A DNA stretch of 64,000 nt from Actinacidiphila acididurans (GCF_016918855.1 NZ_JADKYB010000017.1:1-64000), one strand, 5' to 3'. Positions 10,457-33,957 are shown, counted from the first letter of the stretch. Numbers and translations: made by a program. Notes: a model not told the origin generated them from the sequence alone.

Positions 10457-10726
10457 ATGGCTCGCGCGTGGGAGGCCGATCCGTCGGCGTTATTCGTACG
10501 ACGGTTGGGGAAGTCTGCACAAGAGCTCGGCAACTCGAACGGAGACGACGAGTGCCCGGACATCTGGCAGCTCGACAACGGTGACATCGCCGTGATCGGC
10601 CGCGATCTGACCTCCGCGCTCACCGCACGCCTTCCGGAGGGCGTGCGGCTGGGACCGGACGAGCGGCTGGTCGTCATTCCGGGCAACATGCTCAGCGCCG
10701 CGAAGACGGACATCCCCGATGCTTGA
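10457..10726 (+). CDS. small hypothetical protein, first gene of STAND module
   Basis: An 89-aa acidic protein with no domain I recognise. ATG 10457 follows GGAGG at ideal spacing. The sequence includes DDECPDIWQLDNGDIAVIGRDLT and VRLGPDERLVVIPGNML, suggesting a small beta-rich fold. Codon 12 is TTA (10490-10492), the rare Leu codon read by bldA tRNA in Streptomyces. It overlaps the DUF6879 gene by 8 bases, so the two are translationally coupled. Upstream DNA (about 10390-10440) is noticeably AT-richer than the surroundings and probably holds the promoter. Confidence 0.8.
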   Translation: MARAWEADPSALFVRRLGKSAQELGNSNGDDECPDIWQLDNGDIAVIGRDLTSALTARLPEGVRLGPDERLVVIPGNMLSAAKTDIPDA

Positions 10727-11342
10727 TCTCCGCGCCCCCACCCTTCCGCACGAGCTCGGCGAATACCTCGCCCGGGCCGACTACAAGCGCGACTTCCGCG
10801 AACGGCGCGTTGCGCTCCGCAACAGCGCCTCCTGGAAACTGGAGCGACTGCAGCACTTCGAGGAGATCGGCGACGCCAGCCGGGACGCACTGCGCCGCGG
10901 TGACTGGCAGGGCGCGCTGCGGCTGTTCGATGCACGGCGTGACGCGCTGGTCGCGAGCGCCGCGGACGACGCCCGGCGGGGCTCCGCGTTCAACCGGTTA
11001 CGGATCGTCGAGGAGCCCCTGACGCCGTATGTGCAATGGGAATTGCACTGGCTCCGGCTGAGCGCGGAGTGCGGGCACCATGTGCGGGTGCTTCCCGCCT
11101 CTGCCGTCGCCGCGTCCGAGACGGAGGGCATGCTGCCCGAACTGACCATCCTGGGCGGGCGGGTGCTGTATCGCGTGGTGTACACCGAATCCGGCACGCC
11201 CGACGGCGCCATGCGTTTCACGGATCCCGAAACGGTGGGCCGCTGGGCGGCGTTCATCAGCGACGCGTACGCGACCGCGGACGATGTGCGACGTTATTTC
11301 ACCCGGGTGGTGGAGCCACTTCCCCCGCCACAGGCGGCGTAA
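10719..11342 (+). CDS. DUF6879-family protein
   Basis: A 207-aa protein with the DUF6879 pattern: an early SWKLERLQHFEE helix followed by SRDALRRGDW, and a C-terminal beta-rich half with YVQWELHWLRLSAECGH, VLYRVVYTESG and the ending DDVRRYFTRVVEP. These proteins are common in actinomycetes next to HTH, DUF397 or STAND regulators; their biochemical role is unknown. Its start overlaps the upstream 89-aa gene by 8 bases, and its stop is only 19 bases before the probable start of the STAND NTPase. Codon 94 is TTA (10998-11000). Confidence 0.85.
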   Translation: MLDLRAPTLPHELGEYLARADYKRDFRERRVALRNSASWKLERLQHFEEIGDASRDALRRGDWQGALRLFDARRDALVASAADDARRGSAFNRLRIVEEPLTPYVQWELHWLRLSAECGHHVRVLPASAVAASETEGMLPELTILGGRVLYRVVYTESGTPDGAMRFTDPETVGRWAAFISDAYATADDVRRYFTRVVEPLPPPQAA

Positions 11343-11361
11343 AGCGAACCAGGAGCACACG

Positions 11362-13779
11362 ATTAGCACTTCCGACCCACAGGGCGGTACCCCGGGAGAG
11401 TCCCGCAATGACCTCTCGGGGTCGTCCCGCGATGTCGTCCAGGCCGGAAATGTCTCGGGGGGAATCCATTTCCACCACGGCCTCGCCCCCGGCGGCAGCG
11501 GGCCGGTTCCCCGCCAGTTACCCGCCGACGTGCCCGGATTCGTCAACCGCGTCGCGGAACTGCGGCAATTGGACGCCGTACTGACCGACCGGGACGGCGC
11601 CGAGGTCGTGGTGACCGTCAACGTGGTGGCGGGTACGGCCGGTGCGGGCAAGACCTCGCTCGTGCTGCACTGGGCACACCAGATCAAGCACCGCTTTCCC
11701 GACGGGCAGTTGTTCGTCAATCTGCGCGGGTACGACCCCGGCGAGCCGGTCACCGCCGACCAGGCGCTGCGCGGCTTCCTGCGCGGCTTGGGAGTGCCCA
11801 CCGCCGAGATCCCGCGCGACATCGACACCGCCGCCGCCCTCTACCGCTCGCTGCTGGCCGAGCGCCGGGTGCTGGTCCTGCTGGACAACGCGGCGACGGT
11901 GGGGCAGGTACGGCCGCTGCTACCCGGCACCGGCAACAGCCTGGTCGTGGTCACCAGCCGCAGCCGCCTGTCGAGCCTGGCCGTCCGGGACGGGGCGCGA
12001 CGGCTGACGCTCGGCGTCCTGCCGGAGCCGGAGGCCGTCGCTTTACTGCGGGCGGTCACCAGCGGATACCGTCCCGAGGACGACACCGCCAAGCTGACGG
12101 AGCTGGCCCGGTTGTGCGCGCAGTTGCCGCTGGCCCTGCGGATAGCCGCTGAGCGCGCCGCGAGCCACCCGCACATGCGGCTGGACGACCTGATCGCCGA
12201 GCTCCGCGACGAATCGGCGCTCTGGGACGCCCTCAGCACGGGCTCCGACGAGGAGGCCGAAGCGGTCCGCACGGTGTTCGCCTGGTCGTACCGGGCCCTG
12301 CCCGAGCAGGCCGCCCGGCTGTTCCGGCTCCTCGGCCTGCACCCCGGGGCGGAATTCAGCCTGTCTGCGGCAGCCGCTCTCGCCGATCTGCCGCCGCACC
12401 GCGTACGGCAGCTTCTCGACGATCTCGTCGGGGCCCACCTGCTGGAGCAGACGGCGCCGGACCGCTACCAGTTCCACGATCTACTGCGCGCGTACGCCAC
12501 CGGCCAGGCCCAGACCGACGAGCCCGAGGAACACCGGGAAGCGGCGCTGCGGCGCGTGCTGGAGTGGTATCTGCTGAGCGCGGACGCCGCCCAGGGACAC
12601 ATCAGCCCCGCCGCCGAACACCTCGCGCTGGACGACGCGTCGGCGCCGGCCGCGCCCGTCCCGGAGTTCGCCGACTACCACGCCGCCGTGGACTGGGCGG
12701 AACGCGAACAGGGCGTCTTCCCGCACCTGGTAAGGGCCGCCACCGTGGCCGGTCTGGACGAACTCGCCTGGAAGCTGGCAGCGGCGCTCTGGAACGCGAG
12801 GCCGCCCTCCATGCCGGAGAACGACTGGCTCGGGCTGGGACATCTGGGGCTCGAGGCGGCCGAACGGCTCGGCGACATACGGGCCCAGGTCCTGCTCCGT
12901 ACCGACCTGGGCCGGGCGTACCGGACGGTCAACCGGTTCGCCGAGGGGCTCGACCACCTGGAAGCGGCCCTTCGCCTGGTCCGCGACGGCGGCAGCCGGC
13001 TCGACGAGGCCCGCATCCTCAATCTGATCGGCCTGACCCACCTGCGGCTGCGCCGGCTGGACAGCGCCGCCGACGCCATCGGCGAGGCCGCGGCGATCTT
13101 CCAGGACGCGGGCGAACCGCTGTGGGCGGCCAATGCGACCGCCAATACGGCCAGTACGCATCTGAGCGCCGGGCGGCTGCCGGAGGCGGAGGCCGCAGCC
13201 GAGCGGGCCCTGGCCGCCCACCGGGCGCTGAACCACCGCCGCGGGGAAGGCAACGCCCTGCGCATCACGGCCGCGCTCCACCTCGAACAGGGCCGCGTGG
13301 CGCAGGCCCGGCAGGCCGCGGAGGAAGCCCTGGAGATCGCCCTGAACCTCAGGGACCACGCGCTGGAGGGCTTCTGGCTACTGACCCTGGGCGACGTGCA
13401 GCGCGCCGCGGGGCAGCATGCCGACGCCCTTACGTCGTATCAGCGGTCCGCGATGCTGCACCGCCGCCTGGCCGACCGCAGCCGTGAGGCGCTGGCCTGG
13501 CGCGGTACGGGGCAGACGTACACCGCGTTGGAACGCCCCGACGAGGCGGCCGACTTCCACCGCCGCGCCGCGGCCGTGCACCGCGAACTGGACGACACCT
13601 GGCAGCACGCCGTCGAACTGGACCACCTCGCCGACGCGATCGCCGCCAAGGACCCGGAGCAGGCGCGGGCGCACTGGGCCGAGGCGCTGGCCCTGCTCGC
13701 GCCGTACACCGATCCCCGGGCGCTGGAGGTGCGGCGCCGGATCGAGGAGCGCTTGGCCGCCGGGGACCGGGCCGGGTGA
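11362..13779 (+). CDS. STAND (NB-ARC) NTPase with C-terminal TPRs
   Basis: About 805 aa. After a Gly-rich leader with VVQAGNVSGGIHFH at about 25-38, an NB-ARC ATPase domain carries the P-loop GTAGAGKTSL (about 91-100), the Walker B-like RVLVLLDNA, a sensor region VVVTSRSRLSSL and the GLP-like segment LCAQLPLALRIAAERAA. A winged-helix region follows, then TPR repeats from about 480 to the end. The DNA-binding/BTAD N-terminus of AfsR-type regulators is absent. TTA codons occur at 11518-11520 and 12043-12045. The start is unusual: the best ribosome site (AGGAG, 11351-11355) precedes an ATT at 11362; the only upstream alternative is ATG 11284, which lacks a site and overlaps DUF6879. Confidence 0.85.
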   Translation: MSTSDPQGGTPGESRNDLSGSSRDVVQAGNVSGGIHFHHGLAPGGSGPVPRQLPADVPGFVNRVAELRQLDAVLTDRDGAEVVVTVNVVAGTAGAGKTSLVLHWAHQIKHRFPDGQLFVNLRGYDPGEPVTADQALRGFLRGLGVPTAEIPRDIDTAAALYRSLLAERRVLVLLDNAATVGQVRPLLPGTGNSLVVVTSRSRLSSLAVRDGARRLTLGVLPEPEAVALLRAVTSGYRPEDDTAKLTELARLCAQLPLALRIAAERAASHPHMRLDDLIAELRDESALWDALSTGSDEEAEAVRTVFAWSYRALPEQAARLFRLLGLHPGAEFSLSAAAALADLPPHRVRQLLDDLVGAHLLEQTAPDRYQFHDLLRAYATGQAQTDEPEEHREAALRRVLEWYLLSADAAQGHISPAAEHLALDDASAPAAPVPEFADYHAAVDWAEREQGVFPHLVRAATVAGLDELAWKLAAALWNARPPSMPENDWLGLGHLGLEAAERLGDIRAQVLLRTDLGRAYRTVNRFAEGLDHLEAALRLVRDGGSRLDEARILNLIGLTHLRLRRLDSAADAIGEAAAIFQDAGEPLWAANATANTASTHLSAGRLPEAEAAAERALAAHRALNHRRGEGNALRITAALHLEQGRVAQARQAAEEALEIALNLRDHALEGFWLLTLGDVQRAAGQHADALTSYQRSAMLHRRLADRSREALAWRGTGQTYTALERPDEAADFHRRAAAVHRELDDTWQHAVELDHLADAIAAKDPEQARAHWAEALALLAPYTDPRALEVRRRIEERLAAGDRAG

Positions 13780-32649: not shown

Positions 32650-33957
32650 GTGGCGGAGCACGGCGAGCGGGAGCGGGAGCGGCGGGAGTTCACCCGGCTG
32701 CTGGGGAAACTGCACGAGGCGGCGGGCGCACCCAGCACCGCGTCCCTGGCGGCCCGTTCGGAACCGCTGGCGCATGGCGGTGAATACGGCGGTGCGGCGC
32801 TCAAGCCGCACACGATCGACGGCTGGCTGAAGGGCACGTCCCGGCCGCGCTCGCTGGACTCGCTGCACTTGCTGATCGCGGTGTACGCCCGGCTCCCGGC
32901 GGGCGCCCCGGCGGCGGCTTTGGCTGCGCCCCGGCTGGAGAAGCTGTGGGGGTCCTCCGCCGCGAAACCGGCGCAAGGTGACGGCAAAAGCCCGTCACCA
33001 GGCGACGGGAAACCCGACCGCTGGGAGGCGCTGGCCGCCGGGTCCCCGGTGTGGCAGCGGCTCGGGCCGGAGTGGACCGCGGAGCCGCTGCGGGACCGCG
33101 CGACCGATGCCGTACGGCAGTTGGCCGCGCTGCGGGACCGGCAGCGTGCCGCGCTGGCCGACGACCCCTGGCGGGACGGCACCTTTGACAAATTCGCGCC
33201 CTGGGTGGACGAACGCGAACCGGTTTCGCCAAGTGTGCCGGTCGTTGCCGCACACCGCTTCGGAATTCCGTTCCGGGAAGTGGTGGAAAGACTTCGGAGG
33301 CTGGGACCAGCCGTTCCTGGGAACACGGAAGAACCGCAGGACATCGCAGCGGAGGCAGCCCTGCTGAGCGAGAAGGCGGAGGGCAAGCACCCATTGCTGC
33401 CACGCGAGGGAATTGTCAGCCTTTACACAGTGTACGAACGCAGCGATCAACTCGGCCAGGATCCCCGCACCATAGCGCACAGGTTGTCGGCCTACGGATA
33501 TACCTGTGCCGAAGAACTGCCGGCGCCAAGCCCACACGACACGATCCTGCTGGCTCGAGCAGAGAGTGAGTATGAGTATAGGCGGGCCATCCCGCGCGCA
33601 TTTCTCCGCCTCGTTCCCCTCACTCGAGCATTCATCAGCGAAGAGAGCCGGGTACTCGGCATTCCGCCGGAGGAGGTAGCCAACTGGTTGGTGGCCCATC
33701 ATTTCGCGGTCGAGGACGGCCCGTTGCCGGACCCCAGGGACGACTGGAGCCTGCGATTACTCAAGGACACGAGCCGCCGCCCGCTAACCCGTACCGGAAC
33801 CATCGCCCTCGCCCATCTCCTCCACCTCAGCCGCGAATCCGGCCGCCCCCTGCGCGAGATCTACGACCGCTGCGTCGAACTCGCCCTCCCGGTCCCCACC
33901 GCCGAGACCGTACCAGAGGCGCTGGACCGGGTACCGCGCCCTTACACCGTCGAGTGA
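32650..33957 (+). CDS. HTH regulator-like protein with winged-helix-type repeats
   Basis: About 435 aa. The N-terminus (about 1-85) resembles an XRE-like domain of Streptomyces regulators (FTRLLGKLHEAAG, then KPHTIDGWLKGTSRPRSLDSLHLL). After a linker, four related units of 50-70 aa follow, each with a helix-turn-helix look: AAHRFGIPFREVVERLRRLG, TVYERSDQLGQDPRTIAHRLSAYGY, FISEESRVLGIPPEEVANWLV and LLHLSRESGRPLREIYDRCVEL. Codon 370 is TTA (33757-33759). GC content drops over about 33180-33700, suggesting transfer. The GTG at 32650 has a GAGGAG site. Function unknown; it may sense a ligand or belong to a conflict system. Confidence 0.75.
   Translation: MAEHGERERERREFTRLLGKLHEAAGAPSTASLAARSEPLAHGGEYGGAALKPHTIDGWLKGTSRPRSLDSLHLLIAVYARLPAGAPAAALAAPRLEKLWGSSAAKPAQGDGKSPSPGDGKPDRWEALAAGSPVWQRLGPEWTAEPLRDRATDAVRQLAALRDRQRAALADDPWRDGTFDKFAPWVDEREPVSPSVPVVAAHRFGIPFREVVERLRRLGPAVPGNTEEPQDIAAEAALLSEKAEGKHPLLPREGIVSLYTVYERSDQLGQDPRTIAHRLSAYGYTCAEELPAPSPHDTILLARAESEYEYRRAIPRAFLRLVPLTRAFISEESRVLGIPPEEVANWLVAHHFAVEDGPLPDPRDDWSLRLLKDTSRRPLTRTGTIALAHLLHLSRESGRPLREIYDRCVELALPVPTAETVPEALDRVPRPYTVE

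Follow-up and report, generated by a model that had tools for sequence, protein, structure and literature searches.

A 64,000-nucleotide (64-kb) stretch of the Actinacidiphila acididurans genome (NZ_JADKYB010000017.1:1-64000, hereafter the window) carries, at positions 10457–13779, a compact module of three genes that we tentatively read as an NLR-type amyloid signalosome of streptomycetes whose translation is restrained at two points. Gene 1 (10457–10726) encodes an 89-amino-acid protein, with the Shine–Dalgarno (SD) sequence GGAGG located 5 bases 5′ of its ATG. Gene 2 (10719–11342) encodes a 207-amino-acid DUF6879 protein (PF21806, E = 4.6e-33; 114.5 bits against a gathering score of 23.9) and gene 3 (11362–13779) an 805-amino-acid signal transduction ATPase with numerous domains (STAND) of NLR architecture, composed of NB-ARC (PF00931) and tetratricopeptide repeat (TPR) domains. 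This NTPase, the main protein of the module, is reminiscent of NLR immune sensors known from fungi and animals. The putative restraints are a conserved TTA codon near the start of gene 1 and a non-AUG start codon on the NTPase, upstream of a conserved N-terminal motif of the amyloid-signaling type. All features reported here lie on the plus strand. Genes in the window were called with our own gene caller, and the 9.69-Mb genome carrying the window is referred to as the own genome; the genes surrounding the module are ordinary core genes.

Conservation and linkage of the three genes

A genome scan with DUF6879 recovered 17 loci, all with a recognizable gene 1 (partial in locus L025) and all but L025 with an NTPase gene downstream, which was broken in a few cases; the 8-nt overlap between genes 1 and 2 was kept. 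In the window, this overlap (ATGCTTGA) spans 10719–10726, and it recurs in nearly all modules. Within the genus, 25 of 35 genomes contained gene 1, the most conserved member of the module (75–85% identity); at the family level, it was detected in 71 of 395 genomes at E < 1e-30. Close module relatives among named records belonged to Streptomyces and Kitasatospora. Among 98 gene-1 copies read, 65 were followed by both DUF6879 and NTPase genes and 21 by DUF6879 only. One continuous open reading frame encodes both DUF6879 and the NTPase at four loci (L020, L021, L022 and L148) and on a plasmid of Kitasatospora cathayae (WP_333493574.1), the order in fused homologs being DUF6879–motif–NB-ARC–TPR. 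Such fusions are strong evidence, at the level of gene architecture, for joint action of the two proteins. A preliminary description of this DNA had proposed the three genes as a single functional unit and raised the possibility that homologs might instead be scattered without linkage. We found them linked, with order and overlap conserved across many genomes, and together with the fusions this makes it almost certain that the three genes form one real unit.

The four fused genes retain an internal GGAG and GTG where a separate NTPase would begin; a short NTPase form may, therefore, additionally be produced from them. At loci L065 and L069, modules occur in tandem or head to head, with several broken copies per genome, which suggests fast module turnover. 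The own genome contains a second copy (L063; G000:C12:134996-136827), in which DUF6879 is frameshifted (161 amino acids plus remainder), while gene 1 keeps its TTA at codon 12 and gene 3 has GGAG 6 bases before an ATC, as well as an ATG that precedes the motif by 11 codons. The chromosomal site of the window module is old, since the module of genome G012 adjoins the same MFS gene and genomes G001 and G028 retain only gene-1 relics there. In two relatives, gene 1 is all that is left of the module at this site (L077, 5861–6130, and L078, 5542–5847), its stop codon being lost in L078.

A probable amyloid-signaling-type motif at the NTPase N-terminus

Near its N-terminus, the NTPase carries a motif, RNDLSGSSRDVVQAGNVSGGIHFHHG (11401–11481), whose core VVQAG starts at 11434. 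This amyloid-signaling-type motif, SGSSRDVVQAGNVSGGIHFHH, is conserved at the protein level in all 52 modules that were readable at this position. Across these, V-Q-A..G..H.H is invariant and the core reads VVQA(G/R), while synonymous codons vary. Because the protein is conserved and its synonymous codons are not, the RNDLSGSSRDVVQAGNVSGGIHFHHG stretch is, judging from this substitution pattern, translated and under selection. Read as sequence, the motif is probably RHIM/BASS3-like; its position matches that of BASS3 proteins, in which a RHIM-like V-Q-x-G lies N-terminal to the NTPase.

BASS and Bell proteins form amyloid-signaling NLR pairs in filamentous bacteria, with BASS3 as the RHIM-like class (PMC7889193, PMC8086366). 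Our module resembles these pairs in having an NB-ARC/TPR protein that bears an N-terminal V-Q-x-G motif and in belonging to a multicellular host whose genome also encodes Bell-like proteins with a similar motif at the C-terminus. It differs from them in lacking an adjacent Bell gene, in having two extra conserved partner genes, one of which forms a fusion with the NTPase in certain genomes, and in its AUC/AUU start and conserved gene-1 TTA. Some gene 1–DUF6879 pairs that lack the third gene are oriented divergently to the gene of a Bell-like protein, of an NTPase or of both, with a VYQA..DQH motif common to the Bell-like C-terminus and the NTPase N-terminus (L079, L080, L082–L086, L090, L155, L159 and L164; the motif was not readable in every one). 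This divergent layout matches that described for BASS systems (PMC7889193). At L080, L083, L086 and further loci, the arrangement of the pair opposite a Bell-like protein and NTPase resembles a canonical BASS pair bearing the same small partners. In another NB-ARC protein of the own genome (L101, 1–1800; G000:C10), a helical domain occupies the N-terminus, and a RHIM-like motif follows it instead of standing at the very start.

A probable non-canonical start codon on the NTPase

From the end of gene 2 onward, the gene-3 frame contains no ATG, GTG or TTG until a GTG at 11530, which itself lies past the N-terminal motif. We propose ATT at 11362–11364 as the start codon, preceded at a distance of 6 nt by an SD-like GGAG (11352–11355), a spacing shared with other modules. 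At the corresponding site of those modules, ~24 codons before the motif, the codon is mostly ATC, with ATG, TTG or GTG in others. In 18 unique modules, the 36 codons preceding the motif contain no canonical start, and in most of these modules the frame is closed by a stop shortly upstream, at a distance of a few codons; in 12 of the 18, GGAG precedes ATC or ATT by exactly 6 or 7 nt. The gene-2 stop often falls between GGAG and the start, for example, GGAG-TAG-GCG-ATC. This pattern makes it very probable that the NTPase is initiated at a non-AUG codon, AUC or AUU. The 19-base gap between genes 2 and 3 given in the preliminary description accordingly depends on the start chosen; it holds with ATT 11362 but disappears with a caller limited to ATG, GTG and TTG, which places the start at ATG 11284 inside gene 2. 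We rejected this ATG, as it is out of frame within DUF6879, has no SD and opens a frame that is closed by stops in many relatives. Also rejected, less firmly for the frame-0 cases, was readthrough or frameshifting to a DUF6879–NTPase fusion product: depending on the module, the two frames are offset by 0, +1 or +2, and the TGA, TAG and TAA stops share no common context. For these reasons, re-initiation is preferred.

Two Streptomyces genes offer precedents: infC starts with ATC, and sigR starts with GTC and is repressed by initiation factor 3 (IF3) (PMC5472188). They share with our module a conserved non-canonical start following a good SD. Here, the start sits in an NLR-type accessory gene directly after an upstream stop, and IF3 repression, demonstrated for sigR (PMC5472188), would by analogy with these precedents be expected for the NTPase as well.

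Conventional gene callers accept ATG, GTG and TTG only. If our assignment is correct, they would place the NTPase start downstream and clip its signaling motif, and NLR signaling motifs have probably been overlooked in annotation owing to non-canonical starts.

A conserved TTA codon in gene 1

The preliminary description reported in-frame TTA codons in all three genes, and these were borne out together with the three-gene layout and the 8-nt overlap: one at codon 12 of gene 1 (10490–10492), one in gene 2 (10998–11000) and two in gene 3 (11518–11520 and 12043–12045). With the 64-kb window as the only background, 4 of 146 leucine codons in the module were TTA, compared to 1 of 1,810 in the 52 other called genes (Fisher p = 1.4e-4); a similar density in core genes, which had been considered as an objection, was thus not observed, TTA being nearly absent there. 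The only other TTA-bearing gene called in the window (32650–33957) encodes a 435-amino-acid protein and has unusual codon usage.

As a trait of the module, TTA in every gene does not extend beyond this genome, which was the only one among 47 comparable intact modules to show it. Across these 47, TTA accounted for 21 of 403 leucine codons in gene 1, 2 of 1,055 in gene 2 (with any gene-2 TTA in just 2 of the 47 modules) and 25 of 5,147 in gene 3. The proposed link to bldA through TTA hence stands for gene 1, with its conserved codon at 10490, and is not supported for genes 2 and 3, whose TTA codons are not conserved. Codon 12 was counted in a gap-free set of 58 unique triples, 31 of which have leucine at this position; 26 of the 31 use TTA, five TTG and none CTN. 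Every gene-1 TTA of the set is at codon 12, and the eight other conserved leucine columns contain none. Mapped onto a tree built from genes 1 and 2, codon 12 shows four changes among the Leu12 modules, compared to three to nine, and mostly at least seven, for the other conserved leucine columns. CTG and CTC are the normal leucine codons in these organisms, and for this reason the retention of TTA at codon 12 points to selection, which we consider likely, with shared ancestry still being part of the explanation.

TTA codons close to the gene start are the classical streptomycete pattern (PMC4255298), and for most TTA codons interspecies conservation is poor (PMC10327506). Gene 1, with an early in-frame TTA conserved in relatives, would by this sequence pattern qualify as a bldA-dependent gene. 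In gene 1 of L149, L151, L079 and L082, a TTA sits at codon 17 or 14 and not at codon 12; these are apparently independent TTA codons early in the gene.

Proposed mechanism

In the mechanism that we propose, gene 1 and DUF6879 would serve the NTPase as dedicated partners and most likely constitute its input or licensing arm. On receipt of a signal, the NTPase would oligomerize and expose its RHIM/BASS3-like motif; acting as an amyloid seed, the motif would template a motif-bearing, probably membrane-active effector encoded elsewhere. Translational coupling of genes 1 and 2 is expected from their 8-nt overlap, and UUA at codon 12 would make the coupled operon depend on the bldA tRNA and, hence, on late or differentiating growth. 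As a second restraint, the AUU or AUC start would subject the NTPase to IF3 repression and keep the dangerous component low. For cell death as the output, we see the chances as balanced. The earlier suggestion that the NTPase is a sensor in a conflict or signaling system is still something we infer, now with a concrete signaling motif attached to it.

Several observations weigh against this proposal. The Pfam RHIM model did not match the NTPase motif. Around half of the modules lack TTA at codon 12 and have serine, valine or proline instead, and other gene-1 codons show comparable stability on the tree. Eight modules offer a possible alternative start two codons downstream (seven ATC-GAC-GTG and one ATC-GGT-ATG). 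A search for a Bell-domain effector gene adjoining the window module found none. In favor of an effector encoded elsewhere, the best non-NTPase match to the motif in the own genome was an unlinked 160-amino-acid Bell-like protein at C58 with the identical core VVQAGNVSGG, but Bell motifs of other module-bearing genomes match less well, and G012 has a module but no Bell match at E ≤ 1e-4. Motif matching across the genus, as a test of Bell partnership, was inconsistent, and it is rather doubtful that the C58 protein is the partner.

Amyloid NLRs as a kind of system are already known; for the partner combination and the double translational restraint, we found no description in the literature searched. 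With somewhat greater reservation than for the signalosome itself, we suggest that the module represents an undescribed amyloid-type NLR family, with an IF3-sensitive AUC/AUU start on the NLR, a bldA-read UUA in a partner gene and a phospholipase D (PLD)-fold partner as a new signaling or effector module. If true, this would unite three separate themes, namely the amyloid NLR signaling of multicellular bacteria, bldA-tRNA-based developmental gating and IF3 control via non-AUG starts. Streptomycetes would then carry cell-killing sensors safely, by making them only at differentiation and initiating them poorly.

DUF6879 as a partner or an effector

The AlphaFold2 model of DUF6879 (predicted local distance difference test score (pLDDT) of 89.7) matched mostly PLD superfamily members in the PDB, namely TrmBL2, TrmB, Nuc, NucT, PLD3/4, FAM83B and SauUSI (Foldseek E values of 7e-5 to 0.1; VIA Z of 8–10.5; TM of 0.35–0.43). 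DUF6879 is, thus, predicted to be a single PLD-type fold without the catalytic motif: HKD (HxKxxxxD) is absent from the conserved columns of 14 and 12 DUF6879 proteins. TrmB uses a PLD fold noncatalytically as a ligand-binding domain, and a binding or scaffold role, in analogy to TrmB and FAM83, appears likelier than catalysis. The absolutely conserved polar residues K40, E42, R43, R93, R95, H110, E134 and E141 leave room for the latter. While the predicted fold resembles that of TrmB/TrmBL2, FAM83 and other HKD-less proteins, DUF6879 has no detected sequence similarity to TrmB, TrmBL2 or FAM83 and no DNA-binding domain. The gene-1 model was poor (pLDDT of 43), and PDB sequence searches with gene-1 and DUF6879 profiles gave no meaningful match.

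These data bear on an alternative that we regard as possible but doubtful, in which DUF6879 and gene 1 are the effector pair: the NTPase would sense, the PLD-fold protein, either a separate subunit or fused N-terminally, would act on a target with gene 1 as inhibitor or cofactor, and the amyloid motif would merely aid NTPase assembly. DUF6879 occupies the N-terminal effector position of fused homologs, 21 loci have the pair without an NTPase in the same operon, and the PLD superfamily contains nucleases and lipases. The absolutely conserved polar residues would also suit an effector but could form a binding pocket, the lack of HKD at conserved columns speaks against known PLD catalysis and the pair-only loci often adjoin a Bell/NTPase system, which has an effector of its own.

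Comparison with regulatory NB-ARC/TPR proteins

Gene 3 scored 23.9 bits with PF00931 (cut-off 23.5) and 75.8 bits with TPR_12, which qualifies it as an NLR-like STAND protein; its NB-ARC domain contains the P-loop GTAGAGKT (11632–11655), and Pfam TPR models cover 12931–13701. The AfsR profile (NF053617) matched at 367 bits against a cut-off of 1,430 (E = 1.5e-109), aligning only from position 288 onward, and that of HaaT (NF041717), a cyclophane RiPP TPR protein, at 350 bits against 1,125 (E = 2.7e-104). The module NTPase shares with both an NB-ARC and TPR core alignable over ~650–715 residues, but the scores are far below the curated cut-offs, and Pfam detected no Streptomyces antibiotic regulatory protein (SARP) or helix-turn-helix DNA-binding domain in the NTPase. 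The claim that it is not a standard AfsR-type activator is thereby supported, the AfsR profile covering NB-ARC and TPR only. Unlike in the HaaT setting, no radical-SAM or precursor-peptide gene was noted beside the module.

A regulatory rather than a conflict role, as an AfsR/HaaT-like switch for development or antibiotic production, where bldA control is usual, is unlikely. The sub-cut-off profile matches, the conserved TTA and a local enrichment of DUF397 genes (see below) would agree with it, but none of the three proteins has a DNA-binding domain and the NTPase N-terminus bears the RHIM-like motif; moreover, a conflict system would better account for a module that is distributed patchily (in 71 of 395 genomes of the family), occurs in multiple and broken copies and is also carried on a plasmid. 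It is improbable that gene transfer and mutational drift, rather than regulation, explain the TTA codons and the unusual start: slightly lower GC contents of genes 1 and 2 (0.66 and 0.69 versus 0.73), sporadic TTA codons in genes 2 and 3 and broken copies elsewhere are compatible with drift, but TTA at codon 12 is kept in 26 of 31 modules and never replaced by CTN, the normal choice, AUC/AUU with fixed SD spacing persists across divergent modules, and the chromosomal site is an old one shared with G012 and marked by gene-1 relics in G001 and G028.

Annotation and neighboring genes

Gene 1 had no match in Pfam, NCBIfam or PADLOC, and NCBIfam and PADLOC provided no name for genes 1 and 2. Among PADLOC anti-phage models, just a generic TPR model and one weak short match hit the module. 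Scans for sigma-70 promoters and terminators gave no signal above chance.

By eye, gene 1 resembles DUF397 and DUF6879 the WhiJ sensor domain, but homology was rejected, with hhalign probabilities of 0.2 and 0.15. The XRE–DUF397 pairs (WhiJ/BldB/AbaA) are similar to our module in comprising a small protein and a larger partner in Streptomyces, with TTA in some associated genes, and are frequent module neighbors; they differ in the lack of profile homology between gene 1 and DUF397 and between DUF6879 and the WhiJ sensor domain. Within ~5 kb of modules, 23 DUF397 genes were counted in 1.02 Mb, a density ~10 times that of the own genome, where 9.69 Mb contain 22. At six loci (L073, L075, L092, L144, L149 and L168), a DUF397 gene with the same orientation as gene 1 precedes it by no more than ~200 bp.

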